From positions 1 through 33,182 of the forward strand of contig JAAYGX010000121.1 in assembly GCA_012735585.1 (NCBI GenBank): DNA of 33,182 bases, in the 5' to 3' direction. Below are positions 27,514-33,182 of the stretch, piece after piece; position 1 is the first letter of the stretch, and every line of letters begins with the position of its first letter. The notes beneath the pieces were generated by a model. That model worked only from the letters and a program-made list of their open reading frames with translations. It was not told the DNA's origin and made no database searches. Source of the stretch: Tissierella sp. (GTDB lineage Bacteria > Bacillota > Clostridia > Tissierellales > Tissierellaceae). The position numbers and the translations under genes are program-made.

Positions 27514-28557
27514 ATGTTTAACAATAGTAGATTAAAGAAGATACTAGTTACCGCATTAACATTGGTAATGGTATTAGGAACAGTTGTTGTAGCTGCTGAA
27601 AGTATTTACACCAAACAACTAACAGCTACCTTTGGAAGGATTAGGTTTAATGTTGGCGGAAAAGACGTTACCCAACAAATTGAAAGCAAATATGGTACAC
27701 CGGCATTTGTTACAGATGATGGACGATCCTATGTGCCTGTAAGAGCTATTGCTGATTTAATGGGGTTAGATGTTGATTATGACAATAATACCCATACAGT
27801 AAAACTTACAGATCTTAAATCAGAAAAATACGAAAAGGATCTAAAGGCGAAAGATGCTGAAATCTCTAAACTAAAAAAGGAAATAGCAGATTTAAAGCAA
27901 AATGTAGTTGAAGAAACAAGTCTTGAAACTTTGGAGAAAAAGCTAAATAAGGATTTCGGCACCTACAAAAATGTAGACTTTAATATTTCACTAAAGGAAA
28001 CTTCTAGCAGTATAGATGTTTCTGTAACAGTAGACCTCAGAACTTCCGCTCAACAAAGCAACTGGAATAAATTGACCAATAATGATAAGAAATATTATGT
28101 AGAGGATTTAGTAGGTGATATCACTACAGAATTCAAAAATATTAAGATTACAGGCTCTATTTATAATAATAACACAAAGAGAGATCTACTAACATTTAAC
28201 AAGAATAAGGGTAGTAGCACTGTAACTATATCATATAAAGGCACATCATCAGGTAGAGATAGCTACTATTATGATGATATACTATACGATGCTGAGGACC
28301 ATTTAGACTATTACTTTAGCCGTATTGCTTATGTTACTAATATAAATATTAGAGAAGGTTCCAATGGGCAAATATACGGCACTATAGATATAGAAGAGGA
28401 TAGATATTATATTCCTAGTGATGGTGAAATAGAAAATGCATTTTATGATGCAGAAAAAGATTTAATAAGAGATTATGGAAGTGGTGTTTATTTAGACATA
28501 GAGCTATATTTAAATGATAGGCCTCATGGGATCTATTATGATGGTAGATTTAAATAA
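27514..28557 (+). CDS. Secreted copper amine oxidase N-terminal (stalk) domain protein
   Basis: A 347-residue protein with a signal peptide ending near VVVAAE (residues 5-26). A stalk domain at about residues 35-105 shows the hallmark DDGRSYVPVRAIADLMG and DYDNNTHTVKL. A charged coiled-coil segment follows (110-150, heptad-rich Lys/Glu), then a 200-residue C-terminal part of unknown function rich in Tyr, Asp and Asn, which seems to contain two related halves. The stalk domain is a common cell-surface module in Clostridia and is not an oxidase. The ATG has ATAGGAGGG upstream. It sits alone between a polysaccharide polymerase and a convergent dehydratase gene. Its function is unknown; a wall-associated role is likely from export and context. 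Confidence 0.8.
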   Translation: MFNNSRLKKILVTALTLVMVLGTVVVAAESIYTKQLTATFGRIRFNVGGKDVTQQIESKYGTPAFVTDDGRSYVPVRAIADLMGLDVDYDNNTHTVKLTDLKSEKYEKDLKAKDAEISKLKKEIADLKQNVVEETSLETLEKKLNKDFGTYKNVDFNISLKETSSSIDVSVTVDLRTSAQQSNWNKLTNNDKKYYVEDLVGDITTEFKNIKITGSIYNNNTKRDLLTFNKNKGSSTVTISYKGTSSGRDSYYYDDILYDAEDHLDYYFSRIAYVTNINIREGSNGQIYGTIDIEEDRYYIPSDGEIENAFYDAEKDLIRDYGSGVYLDIELYLNDRPHGIYYDGRFK

Positions 28558-28575
28558 AAAATAGAATTTGGAACT

Positions 28576-28613
28576 AATAAGTAATGGTAGCCCTTGGGCT
28601 ACCATTACTTATT
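28576..28613. terminator. Bidirectional terminator shared by two convergent genes
   Basis: A perfect 18-bp stem (AATAAGTAATGGTAGCCC and its complement) with a 2-base loop lies between the converging genes. The right arm includes the stop codon and last codons of the minus-strand dehydratase gene (stop at 28605-28607), so the hairpin is partly coding. There is no strong U-run on either side. Confidence 0.75.
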
Positions 28614-30485
28614 ACCAGCTAATGATTCTTCGACTTTATCATTGACTTCTTTATTATTTTTATAAGTTGGTACTATTAGTTTTACATAGTTAAGTAAGTC
28701 TTCATTGCTACCATCTTTAACCAACCTATCTAATTCCTTGAAGGAGTTCAATAATAATTTATAGTCAGTAAAAGTAGGTTTTCCGATAAAAATCTTATTA
28801 TGACTAGTATTTGAAATTCCTTCATCATCTAAAAGGAGCTCTTCGAATAGTTTTTCTCCCGGTCTAAGGCCTGTAAATACTATAGGAATATCTACGCCTG
28901 GCATAAATCCAGAAAGCCTGATTAAGTCTATAGCGAGGTCTACAATCTTAACAGGTTCTCCCATATCAAGGACAAATATCTCTCCACCCTTAGCCATAGC
29001 ACCTGCTTGAATCACCAGCTGTACTGCTTCTGGTATAGTCATAAAGTATCTAATGATGTCCTTATGGGTAACTGTTACAGGTCCACCTTTTTCAATTTGT
29101 TTTTTAAATAAAGGTATTACACTACCATTACTTCCTAGTACATTTCCGAATCTTACTGCTACATATTCAGTATTAGAGTTTACATTAATAGATTGAATAA
29201 TCATTTCACATATTCTTTTACTGGCGCCCATTATGTTTGTAGGATTTACTGCTTTATCTGTAGATATCATCACAAATCTTTCTACATTATATTTATCAGC
29301 AGCTTGTGCCAAGTTCAATGTTCCGAATACATTATTTTTTATTGCTTCCTTAGGACTATCTTCCATTAGTGGTACATGTTTATGAGCTGCTGCATGGAAG
29401 ACTACCTGAGGTTTTTGGGTTTCAAATATATTATCTATCCTATTTTTATCCCTTATAGATCCTATTAGTACTTTAAGGTTTAAATCTTTAAATTTTGATT
29501 TCAATTCGTTTTGTATATCATATGCTGAGTTCTCATATATATCTAATATGATTAATTTTTTAGGGTTAAAGCTGGCAATCTGTCTACATAGTTCTGAACC
29601 TATAGAGCCGCCGCCACCTGTCACCATTACTACCTTATTTGAAACATATGAACAAATCTTATCTATATCAGTCTTTATTTCATCTCTACCTAAAAGGTCT
29701 TCAATTTCTACATCCCTTATTTTCTTAATACTAACATCCCCATCTATTAGCTCGTAAATTCCTGGAAGTATTTTTAATTTACTTTTAGTAGCTGTGCAGA
29801 TTTCAATTATGTTACTAATATCTTTTCTCGAAGCAGATGGTAAGGCTATAACTATTTCATCTATTGCAAGTCTTTCTACAGTGCTTACAATTGATTCTCT
29901 ACCACCAACAACAGGAACACCATTTATTATTTGTCCTTGCTTTCTTATATCATCATCGATTAGGGCTACTGGAAGTGAATTTAATTGAGCATGGTTATTA
30001 TATTCTTTAATAACCATGACCCCTGCATCTCCAGCTCCAATGATTAGAATTTTTTTTTGAGTTCCTTTTTTAAATACATGGGGAAGTCCATTTCTGCCAA
30101 TAGTTCTAAAACTGAATCTTAGTCCTCCTATCAATACCATATCTATTAAAGAAACAATTATATAGACAGATCTAGGAAGATTGGCTTGTCTTATAAATAA
30201 AAAACTTAATACCACTGTATTAGATACTATAATAGAGGTAACTATATTCACTAATTCATTTATACTGGCATATTTCCATATAGTTTTATACAATTTAAAA
30301 TAATAGAATATACTAATCTTTAATATAGTTATATATATTGCGTTATTATTAAACCTGGTAAGATAAGATAGAAACTGATCCCCTATAACTCCATCAAATC
30401 TAAGATACAAAGCCAATATATACCCAATATTTATTAATATGATATCTCCTATCATTAGCCCAAATTTACTTAATCTCTTTTCCAT
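28605..30485 (-). CDS. FlaA1/CapD-type membrane UDP-sugar 4,6-dehydratase
   Basis: About 626 residues. Four N-terminal membrane helices (residues 10-110) are followed by a first Rossmann domain (ILIIGAGDAGVMV, about 145; ALIDDD) and a catalytic extended SDR domain. That domain has the cofactor loop VTGGGGSIGSEL near 290 and the large-dehydratase motif STDKAVNPTNIMGASK near 405-420, with the Lys typical of FlaA1/PglF/WbpM enzymes. Such enzymes make UDP-4-keto-6-deoxy sugars from UDP-GlcNAc, on the way to bacillosamine, QuiNAc or FucNAc. The frame opens at GTG 30488, but the AAGGGGAG ribosome site suits ATG 30485. It is transcribed opposite to the rest of the locus. Its likely product sugar would be loaded by the transferase starting at 32692. 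Confidence 0.9.
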   Translation of the reverse strand: MEKRLSKFGLMIGDIILINIGYILALYLRFDGVIGDQFLSYLTRFNNNAIYITILKISIFYYFKLYKTIWKYASINELVNIVTSIIVSNTVVLSFLFIRQANLPRSVYIIVSLIDMVLIGGLRFSFRTIGRNGLPHVFKKGTQKKILIIGAGDAGVMVIKEYNNHAQLNSLPVALIDDDIRKQGQIINGVPVVGGRESIVSTVERLAIDEIVIALPSASRKDISNIIEICTATKSKLKILPGIYELIDGDVSIKKIRDVEIEDLLGRDEIKTDIDKICSYVSNKVVMVTGGGGSIGSELCRQIASFNPKKLIILDIYENSAYDIQNELKSKFKDLNLKVLIGSIRDKNRIDNIFETQKPQVVFHAAAHKHVPLMEDSPKEAIKNNVFGTLNLAQAADKYNVERFVMISTDKAVNPTNIMGASKRICEMIIQSINVNSNTEYVAVRFGNVLGSNGSVIPLFKKQIEKGGPVTVTHKDIIRYFMTIPEAVQLVIQAGAMAKGGEIFVLDMGEPVKIVDLAIDLIRLSGFMPGVDIPIVFTGLRPGEKLFEELLLDDEGISNTSHNKIFIGKPTFTDYKLLLNSFKELDRLVKDGSNEDLLNYVKLIVPTYKNNKEVNDKVEESLAGNK

Positions 30486-30651
30486 CACTTACTCCCCTTT
30501 GATGATTCTATTATCTATTATTATAACATATTAGACTCAAATCACCATATCTTTACTTATATTATCAATAATAATGTAAAATGCTTGATTAGTAACTAAC
30601 TATAATATAAAATGATAATAGTTAAATAATTATTCACGGAGGGCATAGCAT

Positions 30652-31854
30652 ATGGAAGAGATAGAGTTACGAGAATTAATTGAGATATTGATTAGAGGTA
30701 GAAAGACTATAGCTATAATTACTTTTGTTGCACTATTGATAGCTACAGTATTTAGTTTTGTAATATTAAAACCTACATATGAAGCAAGAATGGTATTGAT
30801 GACTTCCAACTTAGGAAGTAATGGAAATAATAACAATTTGGATCCTGGTAATATAGAAGACATGCTGGATCTTATGTCACAATTTCCAAACCTAAATTTA
30901 GAGACATATAGACAGCAAATTAAATCCCCGGAAGTACTGTCAAAAACCATAAAGGATTTAGATTTGCAAGGTAAGTATACAATATCAGGACTGGGTAATA
31001 GAATTGTACTTGAGACAGTCAATGACACTCAAATGATAACTATAAAAATGGAAGATTCAGATCCTGAGGAAGCAGCAGCTATTGTGAATAAATTAGGGGA
31101 GAATTTTATATCTTTTGTTACTGACAAGGCTAAAGAAAATGCAGCGAGAACATTTTCATATGTAGAAAGTCAAATGGATATTGAAAAGGAAAAGTATGAA
31201 GAAGCTTTACTAGAGCTTAAAGAATTATTATCACAACCAAAAGGCGCTGAGGAACTTGAACTAGAATTAGTTAGTAGCTATGAGCAAATCACTTTGTACA
31301 AATCAAATATAAATGATTTAGAGATAAAAAGGGATGCATTAATAAAGGCTATTGAAGAGAGCCGATCATATTCTAACAATAGGGGAAGCATGATAGTCAA
31401 ACCTAATTTGGGAGAAAATTTTAATATATCCTTTGATGATACAAATAAGGTTTTATCAGTTGACCTAGCTGAAACTGAGGGACGAATAGAAAGTACACAA
31501 GATCAGATATCTAATTTACAAAAACACATTGAAGAATTACAAGTAGAATACCAAGATAAAAAATATGAAGAAGATGTAGTTAGCCAAAGAGTAAATATAG
31601 CTAAAAATACCTATGAGTCCTTTGTTGCTAAATATGAAGAGCTAAAGGTGGCTGAGACAGCTAAGATTGGTGAGCTTAGTATCAGTGTTGTATCTTCAGC
31701 TTATCCGCCATCTACACCCGTGGGACCTAGGAAGGCATTGAATCTTGCTATATCAATAGTATTAGGGCTAATGGTAGGAGTATTTGTGACTTTCTTTAAA
31801 GCCTATTGGGAAAGTAGTGAAAAGGATAAGGATAATAATTTAAAAATTGAATAA
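30652..31854 (+). CDS. Wzz/YveK-type polysaccharide chain-length determinant
   Basis: A 400-residue polysaccharide co-polymerase. Transmembrane helix 1 is at about residues 17-38, a long external alpha/beta part follows with strong coiled coil (about 165-320, Glu/Lys/Leu heptads), and helix 2 at about 365-388 is preceded by the Pro-rich motif YPPSTPVGPRKA. A short charged cytoplasmic tail ends the protein, with no fused tyrosine kinase, as usual in Gram-positives where the kinase is separate; no kinase gene is in the window. It probably sets the length of the polymer made by the Wzy-like protein. GGAGGG lies 9 bases before the ATG. It is divergent from the dehydratase gene; the 163-base gap holds AT-rich promoter-like DNA (TATAAT at 30601) without a clear -35 box. 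Confidence 0.88.
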   Translation: MEEIELRELIEILIRGRKTIAIITFVALLIATVFSFVILKPTYEARMVLMTSNLGSNGNNNNLDPGNIEDMLDLMSQFPNLNLETYRQQIKSPEVLSKTIKDLDLQGKYTISGLGNRIVLETVNDTQMITIKMEDSDPEEAAAIVNKLGENFISFVTDKAKENAARTFSYVESQMDIEKEKYEEALLELKELLSQPKGAEELELELVSSYEQITLYKSNINDLEIKRDALIKAIEESRSYSNNRGSMIVKPNLGENFNISFDDTNKVLSVDLAETEGRIESTQDQISNLQKHIEELQVEYQDKKYEEDVVSQRVNIAKNTYESFVAKYEELKVAETAKIGELSISVVSSAYPPSTPVGPRKALNLAISIVLGLMVGVFVTFFKAYWESSEKDKDNNLKIE

Positions 31855-31866
31855 AAGAACGTCTTG

Positions 31867-31911
31867 TTGAAACCTATAAGTTAATTGAAACCATTAACTT
31901 ATAGGTTTCAA
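31867..31911. terminator. Long hairpin, likely terminator, after the Wzz gene
   Basis: A perfect 19-bp inverted repeat (TTGAAACCTATAAGTTAAT and its complement) with a 7-base loop lies 12 bases after the stop. The downstream side is AT-rich (ATTATATC) rather than a pure T-run. Confidence 0.7.
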
Positions 31912-31942
31912 TTATATCAATCAATTAGTTCTATAGATAGTA

Positions 31943-31971
31943 TTTACAAAATTCTATATCTATGATAAACT
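31943..31971 (+). promoter_or_regulatory. Promoter with flanking dyad for the winged-helix gene
   Basis: TTTACA (31943-31948) and TAAACT (31966-31971) are 17 bp apart, with TGA before the -10 (extended element). A dyad ATAGATA (31933-31939) / TATCTAT (31957-31963) flanks the -35 box and could be the autoregulatory site of the encoded winged-helix protein. Confidence 0.55.
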
Positions 31972-32014
31972 AACATCATTCATACAACGAATGAAATAAA
32001 AAGGAGAAAAAAGG

Positions 32015-32626
32015 ATGAAGTTTTTTAGCCCTACAACAGAATTAAAAGAGCTATTACTATTACAACACATTGAGAAAAATCCAAATACAACACAAAAAGA
32101 AATAGCTAGGGTTATAGATGGAGCCACATCAATGGTTAATGTATACATAGATAATTTAGAAAAAAAGAACTACATGCTCAGGGATTATAAGTCGGCTAAG
32201 ATGGTCGATTATAACATTACTCTTGAAGGGGCTAAGAGGAAGAATTTTTTATTAATAAATTACATGAGAGAGCTTTTAGATTTATATCAACTAGCAAAAG
32301 AAAATGTAGAAAGATTCTTATCGGGAATTGAAGAAAAAGGATTTAATAACATACTAATATATGGAGCAGGGGATGTAGCGGATACAATTTTAGGAGCTAT
32401 AAGGGATAGAAATAAAGATACATTGAAAGTATTGGCAGTAATAGATGACGATGAATCTATCCAGGATAAGGAACTGTTAGGCTTTAAGATAATATCTAGA
32501 GATGATATCTATAAGTATAATCATGACGCAGTAGTGATAACAAGCTATGCTTTTGAAGATGAAATAACAAATAAATTAAGAGAGCTTAATTATTCAGAGG
32601 ATAAGATAATAAGATTTTTTAGTTAA
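32015..32626 (+). CDS. Winged-helix protein fused to a nucleotide-binding Rossmann domain; putative regulator of the polysaccharide locus
   Basis: A 203-residue soluble protein. Residues 5-75 form a MarR-like winged helix (TTQKEIARVIDGATSMVNVYI is the recognition region, with a wing near YKSAKMVDY). A linker helix spans 80-105. Residues 112-200 form a Rossmann-type domain with ILIYGAGDVAD (Gly117 and Gly119) and VLAVIDDDE. This second half follows the same pattern as the first Rossmann domain of the dehydratase at 28605-30485 (ILIIGAGDAG, ALIDDD). It looks like a DNA-binding protein that senses a nucleotide, nucleotide-sugar or NAD-type ligand. It stands directly before the initiating sugar transferase, with a good AAAAGGAG ribosome site and its own promoter. 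Function is inferred. Confidence 0.75.
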   Translation: MKFFSPTTELKELLLLQHIEKNPNTTQKEIARVIDGATSMVNVYIDNLEKKNYMLRDYKSAKMVDYNITLEGAKRKNFLLINYMRELLDLYQLAKENVERFLSGIEEKGFNNILIYGAGDVADTILGAIRDRNKDTLKVLAVIDDDESIQDKELLGFKIISRDDIYKYNHDAVVITSYAFEDEITNKLRELNYSEDKIIRFFS

Positions 32627-32691
32627 TTGTTGCTATCTTATGCCTTACAGAAATATTATTTTTAGAAATTATTGTTGGAGTGTGAATAAAA

Positions 32692-33182
32692 ATGTATTTA
32701 AAGTTTAAAAGGGTTATAGATTTTATCCTTTCTTTTATAGGATTAATTGTATTATCACCTGTATTTTTAATATTAATTATAGTAATTAAACTAGATTCAA
32801 AAGGTCCAGTATTATTTAAACAAAAAAGAGTAGGAGTTCATAAAACACATTTTAATATATTGAAATTTAGAACTATGAGAATAGACACACCTAAAGATAC
32901 TCCAACACATCTACTAGAGAATCCAGAACAATGGATTACTAAAGTAGGTACTTTTTTAAGAAAGACAAGCTTAGATGAACTACCACAGATAATCAACATA
33001 CTAAAAGGTGAAATGAGTATAGTAGGGCCTAGGCCAGCACTTTGGAACCAATTTGATCTATTAGAGGAAAGAGAGAAGTATGGTGCTAATGATATACCAC
33101 CAGGATTGACAGGATGGGCACAGATAAATGGAAGAGATACTGTAGAGTTGGAAGATAAGGCTAGATATGATGGATATTATAC
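32692..33182 (+). CDS. Initiating sugar-phosphate transferase (bacterial sugar transferase family), 3' end outside window
   Basis: The frame is open from ATG 32692 to the window end (163 codons). A single N-terminal hydrophobic helix (residues 10-33) is followed by the short PglC-type catalytic domain: FKQKRVGVH, LKFRTMR, TSLDELPQI, SIVGPRP and PPGLTGWAQINGRD. These enzymes move a sugar phosphate from a UDP-sugar to undecaprenyl phosphate, the first step of capsule or O-glycan assembly. The lack of the multi-helix N-terminal part makes it the small monotopic type, as in Campylobacter PglC, which uses UDP-diNAcBac derived from a PglF-type dehydratase like the one nearby. The ribosome site GGAG is 11 bases upstream, a little far. 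It probably opens the polysaccharide operon continuing to the right. Confidence 0.9.
   Translation, partial: MYLKFKRVIDFILSFIGLIVLSPVFLILIIVIKLDSKGPVLFKQKRVGVHKTHFNILKFRTMRIDTPKDTPTHLLENPEQWITKVGTFLRKTSLDELPQIINILKGEMSIVGPRPALWNQFDLLEEREKYGANDIPPGLTGWAQINGRDTVELEDKARYDGYY

Follow-up and report, generated by a model that had tools for sequence, protein, structure and literature searches.

The 33,182-nucleotide contig JAAYGX010000121.1 from the genome of a Tissierella species (assembly GCA_012735585.1), referred to here as the window, carries close to its end a regulator gene (positions 32015-32626, plus strand) whose product joins a MarR-like winged helix to a Rossmann domain. The best explanation for the observations collected on this gene and its relatives, held with moderate confidence, is that the protein acts as a dimeric one-component autorepressor of a polysaccharide operon, with the Rossmann domain as its sensor and a uridine-type compound as the most likely ligand. 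Autorepression would act through a conserved operator at 31976-31994, a part of the proposal that we consider highly probable. The features of the gene and of its upstream region are as follows.

32015-32626, plus strand: regulator gene, encoding a MarR-like winged helix, a long helix and a Rossmann sensor-like domain (open reading frame, Pfam, AlphaFold, 60-row family alignment)
32048-32173, plus strand: winged-helix DNA-binding domain, residues 12-53, from the HTH_24 match (Pfam, model, structure matches)
32222-32335, plus strand: long helix joining the two domains, residues 70-107, 38 residues (DSSP of the AlphaFold model)
32348-32623, plus strand: Rossmann domain, residues 112-203 (profile and fold comparison, separate model)
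32360-32383, plus strand: glycine-rich loop YGAGDVAD, with the family form YGAGEVAE (60-row alignment)
32444-32452, plus strand: DDD after strand 2 (60-row alignment)
31976-31994, no strand: conserved operator TCATTCATACAACGAATGA, a TTC-N7-GAA dyad (TCATTC-N7-GAATGA; family upstream regions)
31943-31971, plus strand: promoter, with TTTACA (31943-31948), a 17-nucleotide spacer and TAAACT (31966-31971), and a TG before the -10 (extended -10; sequence, family control)

The open reading frame (ORF) of the regulator runs from the ATG at 32015 to the stop at 32626, encodes 203 amino acids and is preceded by AAAGGAG at 32000-32006, which resembles a ribosome-binding site. A reading made earlier from the sequence alone had placed a winged helix and a Rossmann domain in this gene, and both were recovered here. 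The N-terminal half matched the Pfam families HTH_24 (E 2.9e-7; 30.4 bits against a cut-off of 21.9) and MarR (E 1.8e-5; 25.0 bits against 24.6), and the full-length AlphaFold model, built with the 60-row family alignment as input, reached a mean predicted local distance difference test (pLDDT) score of 92.3 and a predicted template modelling (pTM) score of 0.72. Helix 3 of the winged helix (residues 38-50) is likely the recognition helix. The long helix would probably form the coiled coil of a dimer, and PadR and Sso10a structures are among the matches that bear on it. Residues invariant in the 60 aligned rows are Q27, N42, Y66, G72 and L79 in the DNA-binding half and Y116, G117, A118, G119, V121 and D144 in the sensor domain, with D145 nearly invariant. 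Altogether, a two-domain protein of one-component architecture is supported at the level of the models. A literature search that reached few subscription journals found no paper on such a fusion of a winged helix and a Rossmann domain.

The regulator gene has a single match in its own genome, which is 97.3% complete. A first scan of genome contigs with the single regulator protein as query gave no match; a profile-guided scan based on an alignment, covering one genome per species for 84,980 species, gave 62 related loci. Of these loci 59 were kept, and three were dropped, two with a frame broken in the record (L088 and L089) and one with a match to residues 129-202 inside a longer frame (L099). 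The three were excluded from the protein alignment, the relaxed-operator count and the neighbour counts, and their upstream sequences were included in the 12/12 operator scoring.

The family is spread over Tissierellales and their relatives, Acholeplasma, Izimaplasma and other Tenericutes-type Bacilli, with more distant relatives (25-28% identical) in Nitrospinota and Deltaproteobacteria. A match over about three quarters of the length or more (E <= 4.1e-53) was present in 16 of 60 related genomes, the own genome included, and three further related genomes had weak partial matches only. Among 398 genomes drawn evenly from the phylum, three had a match at E <= 1e-15, again with the own genome included. 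Additionally, two Chelatococcus plasmids bear a further fusion that adjoins gmd and guanosine diphosphate (GDP)-fucose synthase genes; its annotation reads simply winged helix-turn-helix regulator. A plasmid search with the window protein as query found no relative. From a separate set of 18 plasmid records, 15 were examined, comprising the two fusions and 13 short MarR_EPS proteins.

Conserved putative operator at the regulator promoter

The upstream regions were scored out of 12 with the strict operator pattern T[TC][AG]TTC[AG]-N5-[CT]GAA[CT][AG]A. The full 12/12 operator was found in 42 of 62 regions, compared to 0 of 1240 Markov shuffles. The relaxed form [AG]TTC[AG]-N5-[CT]GAA[CT], with a spacer of 7, was present in 49 of 62 regions (shuffle mean 0.16), and no site was found with any other spacer between 4 and 14, apart from spacer 11 in four regions. 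One locus with 8 nucleotides of upstream sequence (L082) was left unscored in the 12/12 count and entered as a miss in the relaxed count. Among the regions failing the relaxed form, sites scoring 11/12 were found in L049, L051, L061, L079, L081 and L086, and L094 has a site at -238; L064 and L080, also among these regions, carry theirs further upstream, as described below.

The window -10 ends 4 nucleotides before the operator. Across the family, a promoter-like pair (at least 8/12) was detected beside the operator in 42 of 45 regions, where shuffled flanks gave a mean of 12.1 and a maximum of 19 in 200 runs, and the -10 ended exactly 4 nucleotides before the operator in 27 (shuffled flanks: mean 0.6, maximum 3, 200 runs). 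Because the -10 ends at this distance, the operator should cover the transcription start.

Where the regulator sits inside an operon, as in L064 and L080, the operator is found at the operon start. The regulator of L064 is fifth in its gene run, and an exact site with a promoter-like sequence stands at -2878, before a first gene that we take, on recognition from its sequence alone, to encode a heptose-kinase-like GHMP kinase. In L080, the regulator closes a run of three genes, and two one-mismatch sites (-1768 and -1700) precede the first of them. The strict pattern occurs within 170 base pairs (bp) before the regulators at 40 of 60 loci, and elsewhere in the 913 kb of locus sequence there are only three copies, namely the upstream sites of L064 and L069 plus an intragenic one in L073. 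No second operator with at most one mismatch was found in the window.

The copy in L069, from Acholeplasma laidlawii, is a second exact operator located 1518 nucleotides before the regulator start and ahead of a galE-like gene, which suggests that the regulon may extend beyond one operon. Each of the Chelatococcus fusions is preceded by two tandem operator-like dyads, scoring 11/12 each and lying 27-28 bp apart (at 7888-7933 in L106, and at the equivalent place in L113).

Two other repeats are present upstream of the regulator.

31933-31963, no strand: dyad ATAGATA-N17-TATCTAT with 7-bp arms, chance-like and not conserved
31867-31911, no strand: perfect 19-bp inverted repeat with a 7-nucleotide loop and no T-run, between wzz and the promoter (repeat search)

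The first of these was the site through which the sequence-only reading had proposed autoregulation. The general proposal agrees with the conserved operator at the gene's own promoter, and the site itself has to be replaced. When the same 104 bp were shuffled 1000 times, 36% of the shuffles contained at least one repeat like it, and of the 62 family upstream regions only 3, one of them that of the window, show anything resembling it; the dyad was rejected as an operator on both counts. The inverted repeat folds as RNA at -23.5 kcal/mol (z -8.0) and is perhaps the transcript end of wzz. It has no second copy in the genome within 2 mismatches, and its seven further genome matches all carry 3 mismatches, compared to 12 matches for a backward control. 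With no close copy and the control commoner, it was rejected as a repeated element.

Kinship of the putative sensor domain and of the winged helix

The C-terminal half of the regulator gave weak, consistent matches, each under the curated cut-off, to PglD_N (5e-4), the Methyltransf_14 C-domain (1e-4), C2185-like_N (7e-4) and NeuD_NnaD (4e-5), and PF13727 (CoA_binding_3) was not reported for the regulator in the Pfam search. The sequence-only reading had noted a likeness to the first Rossmann domain of the uridine diphosphate (UDP)-sugar dehydratase encoded nearby. This likeness is weak between single sequences (28% over 61 amino acids, E 0.009) and reached a probability of 97.1% (E 5.5e-11) in a profile-profile comparison with dehydratase residues 143-217 by hhalign.

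When modelled alone, the Rossmann domain had a mean pLDDT of 93.8 and a pTM of 0.86. Its best fold match was 2g6t (Z 14.2, root-mean-square deviation (rmsd) 2.0, 92 residues); other matches were 3nkl, named UDP-D-quinovosamine 4-dehydrogenase (Z 11.9), Rex (11.4), succinyl-coenzyme A (CoA) synthetase (11.2) and WbaP (11.0), and the first six Foldseek rows for the lone domain comprise 2g6t, 3nkl, WbaP and Rex. A profile search against PDB sequences gave E values of 4e-5 for 2g6t, 5.7e-5 for 3nkl, 0.049 for Rex and 0.11 for WbaP. The CAC2185-like N-terminal domain of 2g6t belongs to an uncharacterised protein of 306 amino acids and is matched at residues 1-93, so it has no preceding winged helix. 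The PF13727 domain of FlaA1/PglF-type dehydratases and of the large initiating sugar transferases (PGTs) such as WbaP is of the same Rossmann type and belongs to the same pathway as the regulator; in those proteins the domain sits within an enzyme, whereas in the regulator the Rossmann domain is joined to a DNA-binding protein. These comparisons support kinship of the regulator's Rossmann domain to the dehydratase/WbaP-type domain.

The published work on WbaP guides the choice of ligand. In the accessible text of PMC10942596, the N-terminal domains of WbaP are described as structurally resembling their counterparts in PglF-like dehydratases; the PF13727 domain in truncated form is stabilised by uridine monophosphate (UMP), UDP and uridine triphosphate (UTP) and destabilised by UDP-Gal, and the enzyme is inhibited by UMP with an apparent half-maximal inhibitory concentration (IC50) of 4.1 uM. 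Given this published response of a related domain to uridine nucleotides, a uridine compound is the first candidate ligand, and the likeness to Rex makes nicotinamide adenine dinucleotide (NAD(H)) the second. By analogy, the effector of the regulator could well be a uridine nucleotide or a UDP-sugar, a proposal to which we give not quite even chances. No paper on the ligand of PglD was found in a search reaching few subscription journals, and the term UMP was not found in the accessible text of PMC12802240.

The winged helix is homologous to that of MarR_EPS (TIGR04176), a MarR-type model matched by all 60 family members at E <= 0.01. Unlike the regulator family, the MarR_EPS model has 105 amino acids and is without a Rossmann domain, and its cut-off of 88 bits was reached by none of the 60 members (20.9 bits for the window; best 66.3 bits for L092, E 2.1e-18). 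Short genes that bear the MarR_EPS annotation on Rhodobacterales plasmids (L107-L112 and L114-L120) carry GTTC-N6-GAAC 79-118 nucleotides upstream in 12 of 13 cases. When distinct upstream sequences were counted, the N6 site was present in 11 of 12, and spacer 7 in none. TTC/GAA half-sites are therefore common to short MarR_EPS genes and fusions, with a spacer of 6 in the former and 7 in the latter, a contrast partly confounded with taxonomy, as all 13 short MarR_EPS are from Rhodobacterales; the two Chelatococcus fusions, also from Alphaproteobacteria, have spacer 7. No description of a short MarR_EPS binding site was found in the literature searched, which included few subscription journals, and no paper was found there for TIGR04176 by name. 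The phrase 'EPS-associated transcriptional regulator' does occur in the literature, in accessible text that does not address its mechanism.

Gene neighbourhood and the size of the initiating transferases

The regulator is accompanied in the window by three genes of polysaccharide synthesis.

28605-30488, minus strand: FlaA1/CapD-type UDP-sugar dehydratase with CoA_binding_3 and Polysacc_synt_2 (Pfam)
30652-31854, plus strand: Wzz/GNVR chain-length protein, wzz (Pfam)
32692-33180, plus strand: initiating sugar transferase (PGT, PF02397), which begins at once with its catalytic domain and is truncated by the contig end at 33182 (ORF, Pfam)

The dehydratase lies 1.5 kb off and the transferase follows the regulator directly, as the sequence-only reading had described; the gap before the transferase is 66 nucleotides. 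Neighbours at 60 loci were tested by similarity to 21 seed proteins among the first four ORFs on either side. A seed match was found downstream at 55 loci and upstream at 11. Since L052, L094 and L095 match by a NusG paralogue alone, 52 rather than 55 loci were counted as having a glycan-enzyme gene among the first four downstream ORFs, and this exopolysaccharide setting is common to the regulator family and MarR_EPS. A PGT was found within 8 kb downstream at 45 of 60 loci. Placement at polysaccharide genes in other genomes had been expected in the sequence-only reading, which named homologues away from such genes as evidence against it; that pattern was looked for, and the 52 loci, with the three NusG-only loci besides, point the other way. 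Of the five loci without a seed match, L057, L077 and L081 have less than 1.5 kb of downstream sequence, and L093 and L096 are real exceptions to the glycan context at the search sensitivity used.

The first downstream ORFs (n=58) were most often DegT aminotransferases (18) and PF02397 transferases (16), followed by NusG (6) and UDP-glucose dehydrogenases (5). The next two downstream positions (95 ORFs) held PF02397 transferases (24), epimerases (15) and DegT aminotransferases (9), then glycosyltransferases and PglD. The first upstream ORFs were mixed, with Polysacc_synt_2 among the commonest (5 of 58). A NusG paralogue stands directly 3' of the regulator in L041, L052, L092, L094, L097 and L098 and is the second gene in L095. 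These paralogues are presumably LoaP/RfaH-like, and the regulator and a NusG-type antiterminator may form a module. In L054, on the contig of G024:C105 in a metagenome-assembled genome, the PGT match after the regulator is split over two ORFs.

The PGTs downstream of the regulator comprise 47 ORFs at these 45 loci, with lengths of 124-276 amino acids and none of at least 390; five of them, below 165 amino acids, are fragments or cut. All 47 belong to the small kind, in which the sensor domain carried by large PGTs is missing. By comparison, a phylum sample of 119 genomes, the own genome excluded, gave 120 PGT rows, of which 54 were large (390-530 amino acids), 55 small (150-310) and 11 other, and related genomes without the regulator had 9 large and 20 small PGTs. 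Fisher tests against the 44 regulator-linked ORFs of at least 150 amino acids gave p values of 6e-11 for the phylum and 1e-4 for the relatives without the regulator, and 4e-4 when all relatives were used (10 large and 32 small, with the regulator-linked PGTs included). These tests are uncorrected for common descent, and the contrast is used as no more than a pointer. A large PGT does occur in one regulator-bearing genome (G059). It is encoded on the regulator's contig, some 11 kb upstream and on the opposite strand, and this contig ends soon after the regulator. It is possible, as a tentative idea that we rate below an even chance by some distance, that the uridine-nucleotide sensor found in cis in large PGTs is here supplied in trans by the regulator, which would read UMP or a UDP-sugar.

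Proposed mechanism and alternative explanations

In the mechanism that we favor, the winged helices of the dimer would bind TCATTC-N7-GAATGA at 31976-31994, and the bound dimer, lying over the transcription start, would block RNA polymerase. A ligand in the Rossmann domain might re-orient the dimer via the long helix and alter its affinity for the operator. The likeliest ligand would come from the pathway itself, as a uridine nucleotide or a UDP-sugar; examples are the UDP-sugar donor and UMP, which the adjoining PGT releases as its by-product. Operon expression would then track precursor supply or flux.

Several observations weigh against this interpretation. The motif was spotted by eye first, and the sequences that defined it were also the ones scored, so the test was not blind, and the loci scored are related by descent. 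The relaxed site is absent from 13 of 62 regions, no operator was findable before the regulator gene in L073, L076 and L093, and the best -10 overlaps the operator by one base in 8 of 45 regions. The window operator is the sole exact copy in the 3.0 Mb genome, and this uniqueness alone proves nothing, because a backward control pattern is nearly as rare (2 copies against the 1 true site). For the sensor, the C-domain scored 20.9 bits with PglD_N against a Pfam cut-off of 23.4, and the Rossmann fold is as near to Rex (NAD/H) and succinyl-CoA synthetase (CoA) as it is to WbaP. Since domains of these three types score nearly alike, fold and sequence do not separate a binder of uridine nucleotides or UDP-sugars from a binder of NAD(H) or CoA. 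Binding, repression, the dimer and the ligand are all inferred, and the overlap with the start site suits repression, with activation also compatible.

The nearness to Rex leads to the alternative of a Rex-like redox sensor, or a CoA sensor, in which NAD(H) or CoA would tie polysaccharide synthesis to the NADH/NAD ratio or to acyl-CoA supply. Rex likewise consists of a winged helix followed by one Rossmann domain in about 200 amino acids and shares the one-component logic. It is the top full-length Foldseek match of the regulator and ties in Z for the domain alone, as does succinyl-CoA synthetase; at E <= 0.01, 24 of the 60 family members have a match to an NCBIfam Rex model. However, the full-length match has a template modelling (TM) score of 0.33 and an rmsd of about 15, so that the two domains cannot be overlaid as a single unit and agreement is limited to their order. 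The DNA-binding domain of Rex is PF06971, whereas that of the regulator is of the MarR/HTH_24 type, and PF06971 was not among the 9 Pfam families reported for the regulator at E <= 10 (HMMER filters drop most matches above 0.1). With no report of PF06971, and with 12.8 bits for the window protein against a cut-off of 130 in the NCBIfam Rex model, identity with Rex was rejected. A true Rex is encoded elsewhere in the same genome (C77, PF06971 72.1 bits), and the gene context of Rex differs from the placement of the regulator at glycan operons. The regulator model is also without a helix after the last strand, the helix that Rex presumably swaps, and the operator differs from what we take to be the Rex box. 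We therefore consider sensing of the Rex or CoA kind unlikely. The regulator works like Rex and MarR_EPS combined, yet scores below the membership cut-offs of both.

The Rossmann domain might instead have ceased to bind a small molecule and serve as a dimer scaffold, or as a docking surface for a pathway protein (PGT or dehydratase), with regulation by contact. The third glycine of the classic loop, which is alanine and sometimes cysteine in the rows shown, would suit such a role; the six invariant residues of the sensor domain, kept in 60 rows across very distant lineages, suit a kept ligand site, and a scaffold seems quite improbable. A further explanation, that the dyad is a leader-RNA hairpin or that the protein is an activator and not a repressor, is given very little weight. 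As RNA, the window dyad has a predicted fold of -4.7 kcal/mol (z -3.2), and it sits at the start of the predicted leader, but A.C combinations occur among the distinct sites at operator positions 3/17 in 13 of 43 and at 7/13 in 20 of 43. Mismatches this common at two arm positions would not be kept by an RNA stem and argue against a hairpin, and the half-sites shared at another spacing by the short MarR_EPS genes suit a DNA-bound dimer. A leader RNA element was set aside on account of the A.C mismatches and of an Rfam search of 28000-33182 that gave no match.

An autorepressor with a Rossmann sensor would bear on a wider question, that of how bacteria adjust the start of glycan synthesis to the supply of precursors. 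With its defined operator and a sensor domain related to the regulatory domain of PGTs, the family offers a direct test of this coupling that involves a single protein, a single 19-bp site and few candidate ligands. Additionally, the operator allows targets to be predicted in Tissierellales and Acholeplasma, and its half-sites reach the short MarR_EPS regulators. If the regulator does carry in trans the sensor that large PGTs hold in cis, the feedback loop on glycan initiation would act at transcription and not at the enzyme, in several phyla and with one operator code.
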